Below are positions 39,417 to 62,006 of a stretch of 64,000 bases of DNA, piece by piece. Positions within the stretch are counted from its first letter, which is position 1. The number at the start of each line of letters is the position of its first letter. Source of the stretch: Gemmatimonadaceae bacterium. Lineage in GTDB: Bacteria; Gemmatimonadota; Gemmatimonadetes; Gemmatimonadales; Gemmatimonadaceae. The notes under the pieces are model-generated. The model made no database searches, was not told the DNA's origin, and saw only the letters and a program-made list of their open reading frames with translations. The stretch spans positions 62,001 through 126,000 of the forward strand of contig JAIEMN010000004.1 in the NCBI GenBank assembly GCA_019752115.1, given 5' to 3'. A program made the position numbers and the translations under genes.

Positions 39417-39972
39417 CGCCCATCATCTCCAGCAACGTGTTCATCGTGGTCCAGTTGCGACTGGTAACCCCTGCCCCCAACTGTCGCCCCAGCTGTTCGA
39501 AGGGCTTGCTCGTCGAGATCCCCGCGGGCAGCGAAAAATAGACGGCGTCCTCACCGACGGCGGCGCGTTCCACGGTGAAGGGCACACTCGTGATCCGCGC
39601 GGCAAGGTCAGCCGTGATGGGACCGTCGAACAGCATCACCAGAAACGCCGACGGGTGCGCCGCCGCCTCGTGGCGGAGCGGATTCGCCTCGATGAGGCGG
39701 GCCAGCTCGGCGCGCGTGCGTACGAGCACCGGTGTATCCACCGCGCAGCGATCGGCGAGCCCGGCCCGAATGCGACGGGCTGCTGTCGCCGTGGTGGCGC
39801 GTGGTGCGCGAAAGATCACGTTTCCGCTGTTGAGCAGGGTGCGGGCCGCCGAATAACCACAGGCCTCCACGATGGCCTTGAGCTCGGACATCGGCACACG
39901 CTTGTTGCCCCCGACATTGACGCCACGCAGAAACGCCACCATCCAGGCGGCCGACGGGTGCGAGTTGGGCAT
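39409..39972 (-). CDS. DUF1697 protein
   Basis: This 187-residue protein has the DUF1697 pattern: MVAFLRGVNVGGNKRVPMSELKAI, YSAARTLLNSGNVIFRA and a C-terminal TTMNTLLEM. DUF1697 proteins are small soluble alpha/beta proteins of unknown role. The first Met is at 39972. It is the first gene of a four-gene run (DUF1697, HAD, dienelactone hydrolase, DUF3179) with overlaps between the first three. Confidence 0.85.
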   Translation of the reverse strand: MPNSHPSAAWMVAFLRGVNVGGNKRVPMSELKAIVEACGYSAARTLLNSGNVIFRAPRATTATAARRIRAGLADRCAVDTPVLVRTRAELARLIEANPLRHEAAAHPSAFLVMLFDGPITADLAARITSVPFTVERAAVGEDAVYFSLPAGISTSKPFEQLGRQLGAGVTSRNWTTMNTLLEMMGDA

Positions 39973-40098
39973 GCGGTAAATTAGTAGGGCGCGTGCGTTG
40001 TTCAGGGGGCACGACCCGGCTAGATTTATTGGAACGGGTCTACCGGATGCCATCGCGTCGCGATTGCAGGTGTCGACTCGCCCTTGAGCCGTATTGCC

Positions 40099-40626
40099 AT
40101 GATCGAGCGCGCCCCTGCTTCTTCCCAGGCGACCGAGGTTGATCGCCACGCGTTCCTCGGCTCGCATCGCGCGATTTCCGTCGGCGCGCGCGAGTTCACC
40201 CGGCTCTCGGAAGCCCTCGTCGCCGCCGCCAAGCAGATGGCCCCGGCCCATGGGGCCGAGCCGCCGACGTCGCGGCTCTCGCCCGACCGCTGCATCGTGC
40301 AGGTTGGTCCGGTCGCGCTCACGGTCCTCTACATCCGCAATGGCACGGACGTGCCTGCGGGCGGCCAGCTGCTTGCCATGGTGTGGCGCGGAACGATTGC
40401 GGCGCGCGGCGACCATGTGCCCGAGCGCATGCCGGCGCGGCGCGTGACCCCGCAGCCGGTGGCGGTGTGGGAGGAGACCCATGTGGTCTCGGCCGACAAC
40501 GAAGCGTCGTGGCATTGGCACCCGAAGTCGCTGCTGGAATGCGGCTATACGTCGCCGGAGCTCGCGGATCGGTGCATGGAACAGCTGCGCGCCGCGCTGG
40601 TCGAGTCGGCGCCCGTCGTTGCCTGA
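40099..40626 (+). CDS. Unrecognised soluble protein
   Basis: This 175-residue protein has no signal or TM segment. It has a beta-rich centre (RCIVQVGPVALTVLYIRNGTDVPAGGQLLAMVWRG) and a Trp/His-rich turn (EASWHWHPKSLLECGYTSPELADRCM). It matches no family I know and may be lineage-specific. ATG 40099 is preferred over TTG 40084. A terminator-like hairpin lies 47 bp after its stop and overlaps the start of the next gene. Confidence 0.6.
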   Translation: MIERAPASSQATEVDRHAFLGSHRAISVGAREFTRLSEALVAAAKQMAPAHGAEPPTSRLSPDRCIVQVGPVALTVLYIRNGTDVPAGGQLLAMVWRGTIAARGDHVPERMPARRVTPQPVAVWEETHVVSADNEASWHWHPKSLLECGYTSPELADRCMEQLRAALVESAPVVA

Positions 40627-40672
40627 ATGAGGCACGCGGCGTCACGCCGCGGCGGAGTTGACGAGTCAGGGG

Positions 40673-40714
40673 AGGGCACGCGTTCTTAGGCGAATGCGTG
40701 CCCTCTCTTTTTTT
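40673..40714 (+). terminator. Terminator-like hairpin overlapping the next start codon
   Basis: AGGGCACGC (40673-40681) pairs perfectly with GCGTGCCCT (40696-40704) around a 14-nt loop, followed by TCT and seven T (40708-40714). This is a textbook intrinsic terminator shape for the gene ending at 40626. The start codon of the next gene (ATG 40694-40696) is in the loop and stem, and its first codons encode the T tract. Confidence 0.7.
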
Positions 40715-41968
40715 GCGACCGTCGCGGCGGTCGCCCTCGTTGGCATCCTGCCATCGGCGACACCGATCGCCGCCCAAGTCATGGTCGGCCGTGCGCCCAT
40801 CGCGCCGGCCACGGTCTTTCATCCGGCGCGACTCACGCGGCTCGACAGCACCCTGAAGCAGTGGGTACGCGACCAGCGCATTCCGGGCGCTGCGGTCCTC
40901 ATCGTGAAGGACGGCCATGTCGTGCTCGATACCGCGTACGGCGTGCGCGATATCGGGACCAAGGCGCCGCTCCACTCCACGGATCTCTTCCGGCTGGCCT
41001 CGCAGACCAAAGCGGTGACCTCGCTCGCCGTCCTGATGCTCTGGGAAGAAGGGCGTTTCGGCCTCGACGATCCCATCGGCCGCTATCTCCCGGAGTTCCG
41101 TCGCCATACGGTGCTGACGAAGTTCAATCCGGCCGACTCGAGTTTCGAATCGCGTCCGACCGCGCGCCGCATCACGATCCGCCAGCTGCTGACGCACACC
41201 AGCGGCATCGACTACGCGCAGATCGGCAGTGAGGACATGAAGGCGATCTACGCCAAGGCTGGCGTCACGGCGGGGATCGACGATCACGGCACGCTGGCCG
41301 ACAAGATGAAGATCCTGGGCAGTCTGCCACTCAAGGCGGAGCCGGGCGACCGCTTCATCTACAGCCTGTCGATCGATGTCCTCGGGCGCCTGGTGGAAGT
41401 GATCAGTGGCATGTCCCTCGATCAGTTCTTCCGCACACGCATCTTCACGCCGCTCAGGATGAAGGACACCGGCTTTGCGCTCGATGCCGCGCATGCCGCG
41501 CGCCTCGTGGCGCTGCATGAAGAGCGCGACGGCAAGCTGACCGTATCGCACACGGCCACGTCGGGCTCGAATCCGGACTGGCCCGCCGGCAAGGTGACCT
41601 ACTTCTCTGGCGGTAGTGGCCTGTCCGGCACCACCCTGGACTACGCGCGGTTCCTGCAGCTGTTCCTGAACGGCGGCGAACTCGATGGCGTGCGCCTGCT
41701 GTCGCGCAAGACGGTGGAGATGATGCTCACCAATCAGATCGGCACGATGCAGCCCAACTTTGGCCTGGGCTTTGGGCTCGAGACCGAGCAGAACGACAGC
41801 CGTTCGCCGTTGACGATCGGCTCGTTCTCCTGGGGCGGGGCGTTCAACACCACGTACTGGGCGGATCCCAAGGAAAAGCTGATCGCCCTGATCTACACCA
41901 ACATCTTCAACTCCACCGTGCCGCTCGGCGACACGTTCAAGACGCTCGTCTACTCCGCCCTCAAGTGA
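40694..41968 (+). CDS. Class C beta-lactamase-like serine hydrolase
   Basis: This 424-residue protein has a signal peptide (LSFFATVAAVALVGILPSATPIAAQ) and the serine beta-lactamase/penicillin-binding-protein fold: SxxK motif SQTK at 103-106, Tyr motif YSLSIDVLGRLVE, and C-terminal FSWGGAFNTTYWADP. Related proteins are esterases or D-amino peptidases rather than true beta-lactamases. The start codon lies inside a terminator-like hairpin, so initiation may be limited by RNA structure. The next gene, an alcohol dehydrogenase, may overlap this stop (GTGA). Confidence 0.85.
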   Translation: MRALSFFATVAAVALVGILPSATPIAAQVMVGRAPIAPATVFHPARLTRLDSTLKQWVRDQRIPGAAVLIVKDGHVVLDTAYGVRDIGTKAPLHSTDLFRLASQTKAVTSLAVLMLWEEGRFGLDDPIGRYLPEFRRHTVLTKFNPADSSFESRPTARRITIRQLLTHTSGIDYAQIGSEDMKAIYAKAGVTAGIDDHGTLADKMKILGSLPLKAEPGDRFIYSLSIDVLGRLVEVISGMSLDQFFRTRIFTPLRMKDTGFALDAAHAARLVALHEERDGKLTVSHTATSGSNPDWPAGKVTYFSGGSGLSGTTLDYARFLQLFLNGGELDGVRLLSRKTVEMMLTNQIGTMQPNFGLGFGLETEQNDSRSPLTIGSFSWGGAFNTTYWADPKEKLIALIYTNIFNSTVPLGDTFKTLVYSALK

Positions 41969-43026
41969 CCGCTCCCCTTCCCTCCACCATGCGCGCCGTA
42001 CGCCTGGTCGCGCCGGGCCAGCCGGTGGCGCTGCACGAGATCCCGGTGCCGCCGATCGGGCCCCACGATGTGCTCGTGAAGGTGATGGCCGCCGGCATCT
42101 GCCACTCGGATGTGCACTACCGCGCCGGGCGATCGCGGGTCGAGCCGCTGCCGCTCACCCTGGGCCATGAAGTGGCGGGCGAGGTCGTGGCGGTTGGCGA
42201 GCATGTGTTGCGACTCAATGTCGGCGACCGGGTGTGCCTGCATTACCTCGTGATCTGCGAGCAGTGCGAGCACTGTCTGGCCGGTCGCGAGCAGTTCTGC
42301 GTGCAGGGGCTCATGCTCGGTCACTTCACCGACGGCGGATGGGCGGAATACATCGCCGTTCCGGCACGGAACGCGGTACTGCTTCCCGACGACGTGCCCT
42401 ATGCGCACGGGGCGGTGATGATGTGTTCGTCGGCGACGTCGCTGCACGCGCTCCGCAAAGGGCGACTCGCCCGCGGGGAGACGGTGCTCGTGGTTGGTGC
42501 CGGTGGACTGGGACAGAGCGCGGTGCAGATCGCCCGCGAACTCGGGGCCGCGCAGGTCATCGCCGTGGATCGCGATGCCGCCAAGCTGGCACTCGCCGAG
42601 CGCTTCGGCGCGGTGACCGTGAACGCCAGCGGCCTGTCGGTGAGCGCGGTGGTCGAGGCAGTGCGCGCCGCCACCGGCGGCCGCGGGGTCGATGTCGCGC
42701 TCGAACTCGTGGGCCACGGCGACACGGTCCAGATCGCGCTCAAGAGCGTAGCCCCCCTCGGGCGCGCGGTCGTGGTCGGCCTCAACGACGTCACCGTCCC
42801 CATCGACACCTACCGCGACCTGATCGGCCGAGAAGCGGAGCTCATCGGCTCCAACGATCACTTCCTGAGCGAACTCGAGGAGCTGTGCGCGATGGCGCGC
42901 GCAGGGTCGCTGGTGCTCGACGACGTCGTGACCGCCGAGGTCCCGCTCTCGGCGGAGGCGATCAATGGGGTACTCGATGCGCTGGAGGAAGGGCGGGCGC
43001 CGGCGCGGACGGTGGTCGGGTTCTGA
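41965..43026 (+). CDS. Zinc-dependent alcohol dehydrogenase (MDR)
   Basis: This 353-residue medium-chain dehydrogenase has the catalytic zinc ligands Cys in AAGICHSDVHY and His in LTLGHEVAGE, the structural zinc Cys cluster (CEQCEHC, then REQFC), and the NAD(P) Rossmann motif LVVGAGGLGQSAVQ. Substrate unknown; an alcohol or sugar alcohol is likely. It either starts at GTG 41965, overlapping the previous stop, or at ATG 41989 (MRAVRLV). The second is nearer the family's usual start. A nested palindromic element follows its stop. Confidence 0.87.
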   Translation: MTAPLPSTMRAVRLVAPGQPVALHEIPVPPIGPHDVLVKVMAAGICHSDVHYRAGRSRVEPLPLTLGHEVAGEVVAVGEHVLRLNVGDRVCLHYLVICEQCEHCLAGREQFCVQGLMLGHFTDGGWAEYIAVPARNAVLLPDDVPYAHGAVMMCSSATSLHALRKGRLARGETVLVVGAGGLGQSAVQIARELGAAQVIAVDRDAAKLALAERFGAVTVNASGLSVSAVVEAVRAATGGRGVDVALELVGHGDTVQIALKSVAPLGRAVVVGLNDVTVPIDTYRDLIGREAELIGSNDHFLSELEELCAMARAGSLVLDDVVTAEVPLSAEAINGVLDALEEGRAPARTVVGF

Positions 43027-43812: not shown

Positions 43813-44516
43813 CACTTTCCCTCCGGCGTGACCACGAACGCGTCGAAGAGCGTCATGCTGTCGGTCTTGGACCAGAGCCCGACCTTGCCGCTGACCGGCT
43901 CGGGCAGCGTGAACTCCACCGCCAGCTGTCCATTCAGATAGGCCTTGAAGTCGGTGCCCTTCACGGTGACCGAGAGGGTGTTCCACGTGCCCAGCTCGAG
44001 CGGGTACGAACCGGTGCCACGCTTTACGAACGAACGCACTCCGTTCTTGAAGGTCCAGAGCACCACGTTGTCTTCGGTGCCGTTGAAGCGTACGGTGAGA
44101 TAATCGCCGTTCGGCTTCACGTTGAAGAGAATGCCGCCGCACCGATCGAGCGCACCGCCGATCATCTTGAACTTCACGGTGATCGTGCCGTTGCTGAAGC
44201 TCGGCACGGCCTTGTTCACGGCAATCGGGAAGTACGCGAACGCCTTCACGTTGTCGATGAATTCCTCGTGCTCAGCGCCGTAGATCGCGCGCGCCTTGTC
44301 GGCGAGACCGCCCGCCGGTTGCCCCTTCTTCCAGATGCGGCCGTCCACCATGAGCACATTCTTGCCGCCATCCTTGGTGACCACCCAGTTGCCCACCATC
44401 GGGAGAAACTGAGTGGGCTCCTTGCCGACGGCGTCATTGGCAAAGGCGAAGGACTGGGCGGACAGCGGTGCGGCGACGAGCAGTGCCGCGAGGGCGAGAG
44501 GTCGGAGGTGGCGCAT
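43812..44516 (-). CDS. Exported LamG/jelly-roll-like protein
   Basis: This 234-residue protein has a signal peptide (LALAALLVAAPLSAQ) and then a beta-jelly-roll pattern like 3-keto-disaccharide hydrolase/LamG domains: NGTITVKFKMIGGALDRCGGILFN, GDYLTVRFNGTEDNVVLW, GTWNTLSVTVKGTDFKAYLNGQLAVEF and KVGLWSKTDSMTLFDAFVV. The last phrase is very typical of DUF1080-like carbohydrate proteins. Probably carbohydrate binding or hydrolysis. Start at Met 44516, before the signal peptide. Confidence 0.75.
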   Translation of the reverse strand: MRHLRPLALAALLVAAPLSAQSFAFANDAVGKEPTQFLPMVGNWVVTKDGGKNVLMVDGRIWKKGQPAGGLADKARAIYGAEHEEFIDNVKAFAYFPIAVNKAVPSFSNGTITVKFKMIGGALDRCGGILFNVKPNGDYLTVRFNGTEDNVVLWTFKNGVRSFVKRGTGSYPLELGTWNTLSVTVKGTDFKAYLNGQLAVEFTLPEPVSGKVGLWSKTDSMTLFDAFVVTPEGK

Positions 44517-61627: not shown

Positions 61628-62006
61628 GGCAGATCGGTCAGAGCGTGAATCACAGGGGTGCCGAGCTCCCAATGGTACTCCGGGCTGCCGCCGCTCGCGA
61701 TAACGCGCCGCGAATAGCGAGCTCAGCCTATTTCGCGCCGGGCACGAATTGTCGTATATAACGTTTCCTTCATCTATAATTTTCCTGATTTCGGTATATC
61801 TGTAAATCTCACTCAGGTATGCAGTTATGGATTCTGGTAACGCCTGTCACACCGTCTCGAAGTATTCCCCGGCTTGGTGCGCTGGGTCACTGCGCTCGTG
61901 AGACCTCATCCATAGTTCATTCGTCCCAGCGGAGTAGGGGAACTCCCGTACGCAGTTCTACGGAGGGCTGACGAGCCCTGCCGTTTCGAAATCGCTGGCC
62001 AGCCTG
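61628..62006. promoter_or_regulatory. AT-rich divergent intergenic region with possible promoter
   Basis: This 379-bp gap is the longest gene-free stretch. 61740-61830 is strikingly AT-rich for the window. TATAAT at 61775-61780 and TTGTCG at 61749-61754 (20-bp spacing, longer than the usual 16-18) could serve the plus-strand redox genes. Other AT words (GTATATA, GGTATATC) could serve either side. No gene, hairpin terminator or recognisable riboswitch was found. Confidence 0.4.

Follow-up and report, generated by a model that had tools for sequence, protein, structure and literature searches.

A terminator-like hairpin overlapping the start codon of a secreted hydrolase gene in a Gemmatimonadaceae bacterium

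The Gemmatimonadaceae genome analysed here carries a hairpin followed by seven T that overlaps the first codons of a gene for a secreted serine hydrolase. With a probability of roughly 0.5, this arrangement is an ordinary intrinsic terminator of the upstream open reading frame (ORF) overlapping the hydrolase start, with the hydrolase transcribed from its own start site inside the hairpin. The hairpin would then be an ordinary strong intrinsic (Rho-independent) terminator, most likely that of the conserved upstream ORF (40084-40626). In this lineage the hydrolase gene would lie directly behind that ORF, the descending arm and T tract doubling as codons 1-7, and its mRNA, probably leaderless and starting at or near A40694, would lack the ascending arm. 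The hairpin could therefore neither terminate this mRNA nor hide its ATG. The initial annotation had offered three explanations, and the one in which an upstream terminator overlaps a new neighbour's start by coincidence is the best supported of them, because the hairpin lies 41 nt behind the conserved ORF, the gene order changed there and no ortholog of the hydrolase shares the structure. It looks like an end-of-gene signal overlapping the next gene, in one genome only, and not like a conserved switch.

The window, a stretch of 64,000 nt, corresponds to positions 62,001 to 126,000 of contig C4 of this genome (G000; assembly of 83 contigs, 5.17 Mb). Its relevant features are:

40084..40626, + strand: upstream ORF, 180 aa from TTG; the true start may be ATG 40099
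40658..40663, + strand: TTGACG, -35-like, beginning at -36 from the ATG and including an in-frame TTG
40668..40685, + strand: ascending arm of the hairpin, with the perfect core at 40673-40681 (sequence and fold)
40682..40687, + strand: GTTCTT at the place expected for a leaderless -10 box (-12), a poor match to TAnnnT
40686..40691, + strand: hairpin loop TTAGGC (fold)
40692..40709, + strand: descending arm of the hairpin, holding the ATG and codons 2-5
40694..41968, + strand: secreted serine hydrolase, 424 aa, PF00144 Beta-lactamase family (Pfam, 7.1e-69)
40708..40714, + strand: T tract of seven, hydrolase codons 5-7 (TCT TTT TTT)

Hairpin, T tract and hydrolase start codon

The perfect core of the hairpin pairs 40673-40681 (AGGGCACGC) with 40696-40704 (GCGTGCCCT) over 9 bp with 14 nt between the arms, the full fold comprises 18 pairs including G-U and a 6-nt loop, and the T tract follows directly after the stem. 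A stable GC-rich hairpin with a T tract immediately behind it has the make-up of an intrinsic terminator. Sequence reading and folding agree with the stem, spacing and seven T reported initially, and with the position of codons 2-7 within the descending stem and T tract. The ATG, which had been described as lying in loop and stem, is placed by the full fold entirely in the descending arm, where 40694-40696 are paired. Positions 40660-40730 fold at -40.7 kcal/mol, compared with -24.15 kcal/mol (sd 2.93) for 200 shuffles, none of which was as good (z -5.65), and 40627-40714 give a z of -5.68. Runs of at least seven T (or A) occur once in the window and only six times in 1,971,871 bases of the genome, in which a seven-T run is exceptional at a GC content of 67.5%. 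Given the z of -5.65 and the scarcity of such runs, hairpin and T tract are not due to chance, and the structure presumably terminates transcription in the cell. Another short inverted repeat (GCGACCGTCG/CGGCGGTCGC) follows the T tract immediately, at 40715-40734, inside the coding region.

The hydrolase reading frame is intact over 424 aa, with a full Pfam match, a high coding score and a signal peptide (MRALSFFATVAAVALVGILPSATPIAAQ, judged by eye). Its earlier designation as class-C beta-lactamase-like is valid at the level of PF00144 only; the NCBIfam model for class C beta-lactamase (AmpC) gives it 40.3 bits, with the cut-off set at 415. Eight Gemmatimonadota orthologs, chosen by eye from open frames together with their start codons, all begin at a signal peptide matching that at ATG 40694. 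Their second residue is Arg in seven and Lys in one, their fourth is Leu, and the segment has the look of a signal peptide. This set consists of the seven of 80 loci titled Gemmatimonadetes, Gemmatimonadota or Gemmatimonadaceae and of L003, leaving out the Bacteroidota loci L037, L043 and L046 and the other 70 of the 80. Judged by this comparison, ATG 40694 is the right start, in agreement with the initial annotation, so that the hairpin does cover the initiation codon. Translation from the in-frame TTG at 40658, which would place the stem inside the coding region to be opened by ribosomes, is highly improbable: the frame is open from there without a stop, but GGAG abuts the TTG without spacing, codon scoring is negative immediately ahead of 40694 and the orthologs uniformly start at the position of the ATG.

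The codons forming the T tract are unusual. TCT accounts for 1.4% of Ser codons in gene bodies and 7.8% in codons 2-10 of this genome, and two or more TTT in codons 2-10 are found in 6 of 1521 called genes (gene, codon, terminator-spacing and stem counts here and below rest on a simple gene caller and have approximate starts). In this one sequence, such codons are as expected if the DNA served as a terminator first and as coding sequence second.

Upstream ORF, gene order and conservation

The upstream ORF has no Pfam or NCBIfam match and was left uncalled by our simple codon-model gene caller, so it is only through conservation that it can be proposed as the client of the terminator; 26 of the 30 genus genomes, counting this one, contain relatives. 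The 41 nt between its stop codon and the hairpin are typical of this genome, where 74 intergenic terminators in 1.97 Mb lie a median of 53 nt behind the upstream stop and 19 of them, this hairpin included, are as strong. The 11 relatives with loci, out of 25 that have the ORF, were viewed; all carry infA (IF-1, recognized by eye from its sequence) directly behind the ORF, and none has a comparable terminator there. Here, the two PF01176 (infA) genes are located on contigs C32 and C33, the C32 copy behind a cold-shock-like gene. Because infA adjoins the ORF in all relatives viewed and is found on other contigs here, the gene order has changed at the interval between ORF and hydrolase, where the terminator is also new; as infA is the usual follower, it would be a new neighbour that came to overlap the terminator. 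Of the 30 genus genomes, two encode a close hydrolase ortholog, this genome (100%) and one other (60%), the remainder reaching at most 42%, and the nearest named orthologs come from Gemmatimonadota. In the genome with the 60% ortholog (G010), the gene preceding the hydrolase is a different one, whose end overlaps the hydrolase start.

Alternatively, the hydrolase might have been cut off from any promoter and left silent, be it by an assembly join or by a recent rearrangement. The altered order falls exactly at this interval, in an assembly of many contigs, and no convincing promoter was identified; against this stand the intact frame, the full Pfam match and the high coding score, and no direct sign of a join was seen, which leaves this reading quite improbable.

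The hairpin is not shared with any of the eight orthologs, in which the best stem within a stretch reaching from 45 nt upstream to 30 nt downstream of the start has 3-7 bp and the longest T run at most 4 nt. A DNA search of 179 family genomes with 40560-40900 aligned across the hairpin in the own genome only (0 of 178 others); the other 31 genomes with matches gave short pieces, none of which spans it. Absence of stem conservation had been named in the initial annotation as a finding that would speak against its proposal, and this is what both comparisons returned. Furthermore, Rfam, the eight orthologs and the 179 family genomes yielded neither a conserved aptamer or leader nor a stem retained through compensatory changes. 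A known RNA family was ruled out by the missing Rfam match and a genomic repeat by the single copy of the hairpin in its genome.

Elsewhere, the genome contains an interspersed palindromic repeat with the core AACTGATCAGTT and arms that vary together (e.g. AAACCCGGAACCCAG...CTGGGTTCCGGGTTTTTGG), which resembles a mobile repeat of the REP type with GATC at its centre. The core has 36 matches in 1.97 Mb, one of them inside a called gene; G001 and G002, searched over 400 kb each, have none. Examples are C6:42694 and C24:29289 (joined stretches); the copies on contig C4 are at 44049, 161709 and 168677, with none in the window.

A transcription attenuator, or a ligand or protein switch, would require an mRNA starting upstream and an antiterminator or bound factor deciding whether the hairpin forms. 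A strong terminator before and into the coding start, with a buried ATG, would suit such a device, but the hairpin core pairs at a probability of 1.0, and preventing its two arms from pairing with each other costs 17.5-24 kcal/mol across the four transcript lengths folded, none of which yielded a mutually exclusive antiterminator. An attenuator with an alternative fold was accordingly rejected. In addition to the lack of conservation and of an Rfam match, a scan of 39500-42500 gave no match to a sigma-70-type promoter. Attenuation, as first suggested, is thus disfavoured and a switch of any of these kinds very doubtful.

Leaderless signature and accessibility of the start

The genus carries what reads as a clear sequence signature of leaderless mRNAs. 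In the own genome, TAnnnT begins at -13/-12/-11 in 31/70/25 of 1173 ATG genes, compared with 3.9 per position in a control stretch, and the box is thereby present in 126 of the 1173 genes. The signal is weaker in 400 kb each of G001 (2/9/5 vs 1.4) and G002 (2/12/10 vs 0.7). The -10 consensus is roughly TAG(A/C)TT, and TTGAC at -36/-35 is also enriched in the own genome (3/8 vs 0.7, the hydrolase gene counted). Leaderless mRNAs occur in mycobacteria, as described in the cited part of PMC4633059; compared with what is reported there, the -10 boxes 11-13 nt before the ATG across the genus are similar, whereas the hydrolase gene has a -35-like hexamer in place and no good -10 box. A search of open-licence papers found none linking Gemmatimonas or Gemmatimonadetes with leaderless genes, and within the cited part of PMC10783764 a Gemmatimonadota class is mentioned nowhere but in an anti-SD table and the accompanying text.

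Since the terminator overlaps the start, the hydrolase would have to be transcribed from a site within the hairpin, and a transcript beginning there would be the simplest way to read the gene. The hydrolase gene lacks the -10 box that leaderless genes carry some 12 nt ahead of the start: the candidates at -13 to -11 (CGTTCT, GTTCTT and TTCTTA) all lack A at position 2. Because TAnnnT is missing and no sigma-70 match was obtained, the own promoter is the weak step of the proposed mechanism, and leaderless transcription of the hydrolase is offered here as a hypothesis that fits, not as a result.

Predicted accessibility of the start codon depends on where the RNA begins. The probability of an unpaired ATG is 0.001 in read-through RNA, a value as low as in 6 of 300 sampled genes, vs 0.875 in an mRNA starting at the ATG. 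The start region ranks 12th of 1173 in stability at -30..+30 and is ordinary (430th) at +1..+40. The RNA-structure control of initiation considered initially is therefore plausible for read-through RNA, although the hairpin is not conserved, and an mRNA starting inside the hairpin would escape such control.

Start-spanning structures and known systems

Among the 74 intergenic terminators, the next start on the same strand follows within 0-100 nt behind the stem in 13 and within 0-20 nt in 5, and is located inside the hairpin in one, the case described here. The overlap of start and terminator falls at the extreme of spacings that vary continuously. Two genus-mates, surveyed over 400 kb each, gave 1 of 21 terminators (weak, with a 7-bp stem, -11.4) and 0 of 7 overlapping a called start, and a wider genus class of start-spanning terminators was rejected on these counts. 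Start-spanning palindromes were likewise rejected as an enriched class: stems of at least 10 bp across start codons are under-represented in the own genome (52 of 866 genes vs 91-110 at seven shifted positions), and those of at least 15 pairs are not depleted (7 vs 2-14 of 866).

Several other structures near gene starts were noted. At C1:71721 of the own genome a terminator-like hairpin with a T tract precedes a gene pair that we take, by eye, to be rimP-nusA; leader terminators before these genes are known from other bacteria. An ATG seemed to lie in the loop, but the gene starts further on, and the site was rejected as a look-alike. In three genus genomes (C20:106955 of the own genome, L268; L266; L269) a hairpin with differing arms lies across the ATG of a polA-like gene (MADVT...LIDGYALIYRAF or LVDGYALIYRAF; named by eye); pattern matches in G004, G026 and G029 are not this gene. 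On the minus strand of C19 in the own genome, a leaderless-like gene for a secreted protein starting at 197133 (joined stretch) has a 21-pair palindrome that spans the -10 box and ATG, carries no T tract and may represent either an operator or a hairpin that hides the start.

As in other intrinsic terminators, a GC-rich stem followed by seven T is located shortly behind a stop codon; unlike these, the hairpin reaches into the next gene, whose ATG and codons 2-7 occupy the descending arm and T tract. The transposase genes of IS10/IS200 are protected from outside transcription by structure at the gene start. The hydrolase start resembles them in a structure that would block the use of read-through RNA, but the hydrolase is an ordinary chromosomal gene with no mobile element seen there. 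In phage T4, the start of gene e (and of soc, 49 and I-TevI) is hidden by a hairpin in long early RNA, and late RNA starting inside the hairpin escapes this hiding, according to the cited passages of PMC3014915. Relative to the system as these passages portray it, read-through RNA would here also bury the start, by prediction, and RNA starting inside the hairpin would not; the hydrolase start differs in having the T tract of a terminator and in lacking both conserved copies and a promoter mapped to the ascending arm. Of the elements of such a promoter, TTGACG at -36 was seen and TAnnnT was absent. Membership of the gene e type cannot be claimed, because the inner promoter is putative and conservation is lacking throughout.

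A selected two-level insulator, with the hairpin stopping read-through and hiding the ATG in escaping transcripts while leaderless mRNA is immune, would operate in the manner of T4 gene e plus termination and is rather unlikely. The contrast in predicted ATG pairing between the two RNAs, a stable start region that is ordinary from +1 onwards, rare codons kept as a T tract and TTGACG at -36 are consistent with it. The hairpin is, however, missing from all eight orthologs and the sole case among 74 terminators, long stems across starts are under-represented and the hydrolase lacks a -10 box. That a terminator was built into the promoter and first codons of the next gene, such that read-through is cut off or start-hidden and the gene's own leaderless RNA escapes both, is a similarly tentative proposition, which if true would make this a terminator-insulated leaderless start and a compact gene boundary.

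Should the preferred reading, an ordinary terminator overlapping a newly adjacent gene, amount to overlap only, it would caution annotators that a terminator may reach into a genuine coding start. If leaderless transcription holds as well, the site would show a terminator and the next start sharing the same 40 bases in a leaderless-rich genome. The apparent leaderless signature of the genus may be a more useful by-product of this analysis than the hairpin overlap itself.
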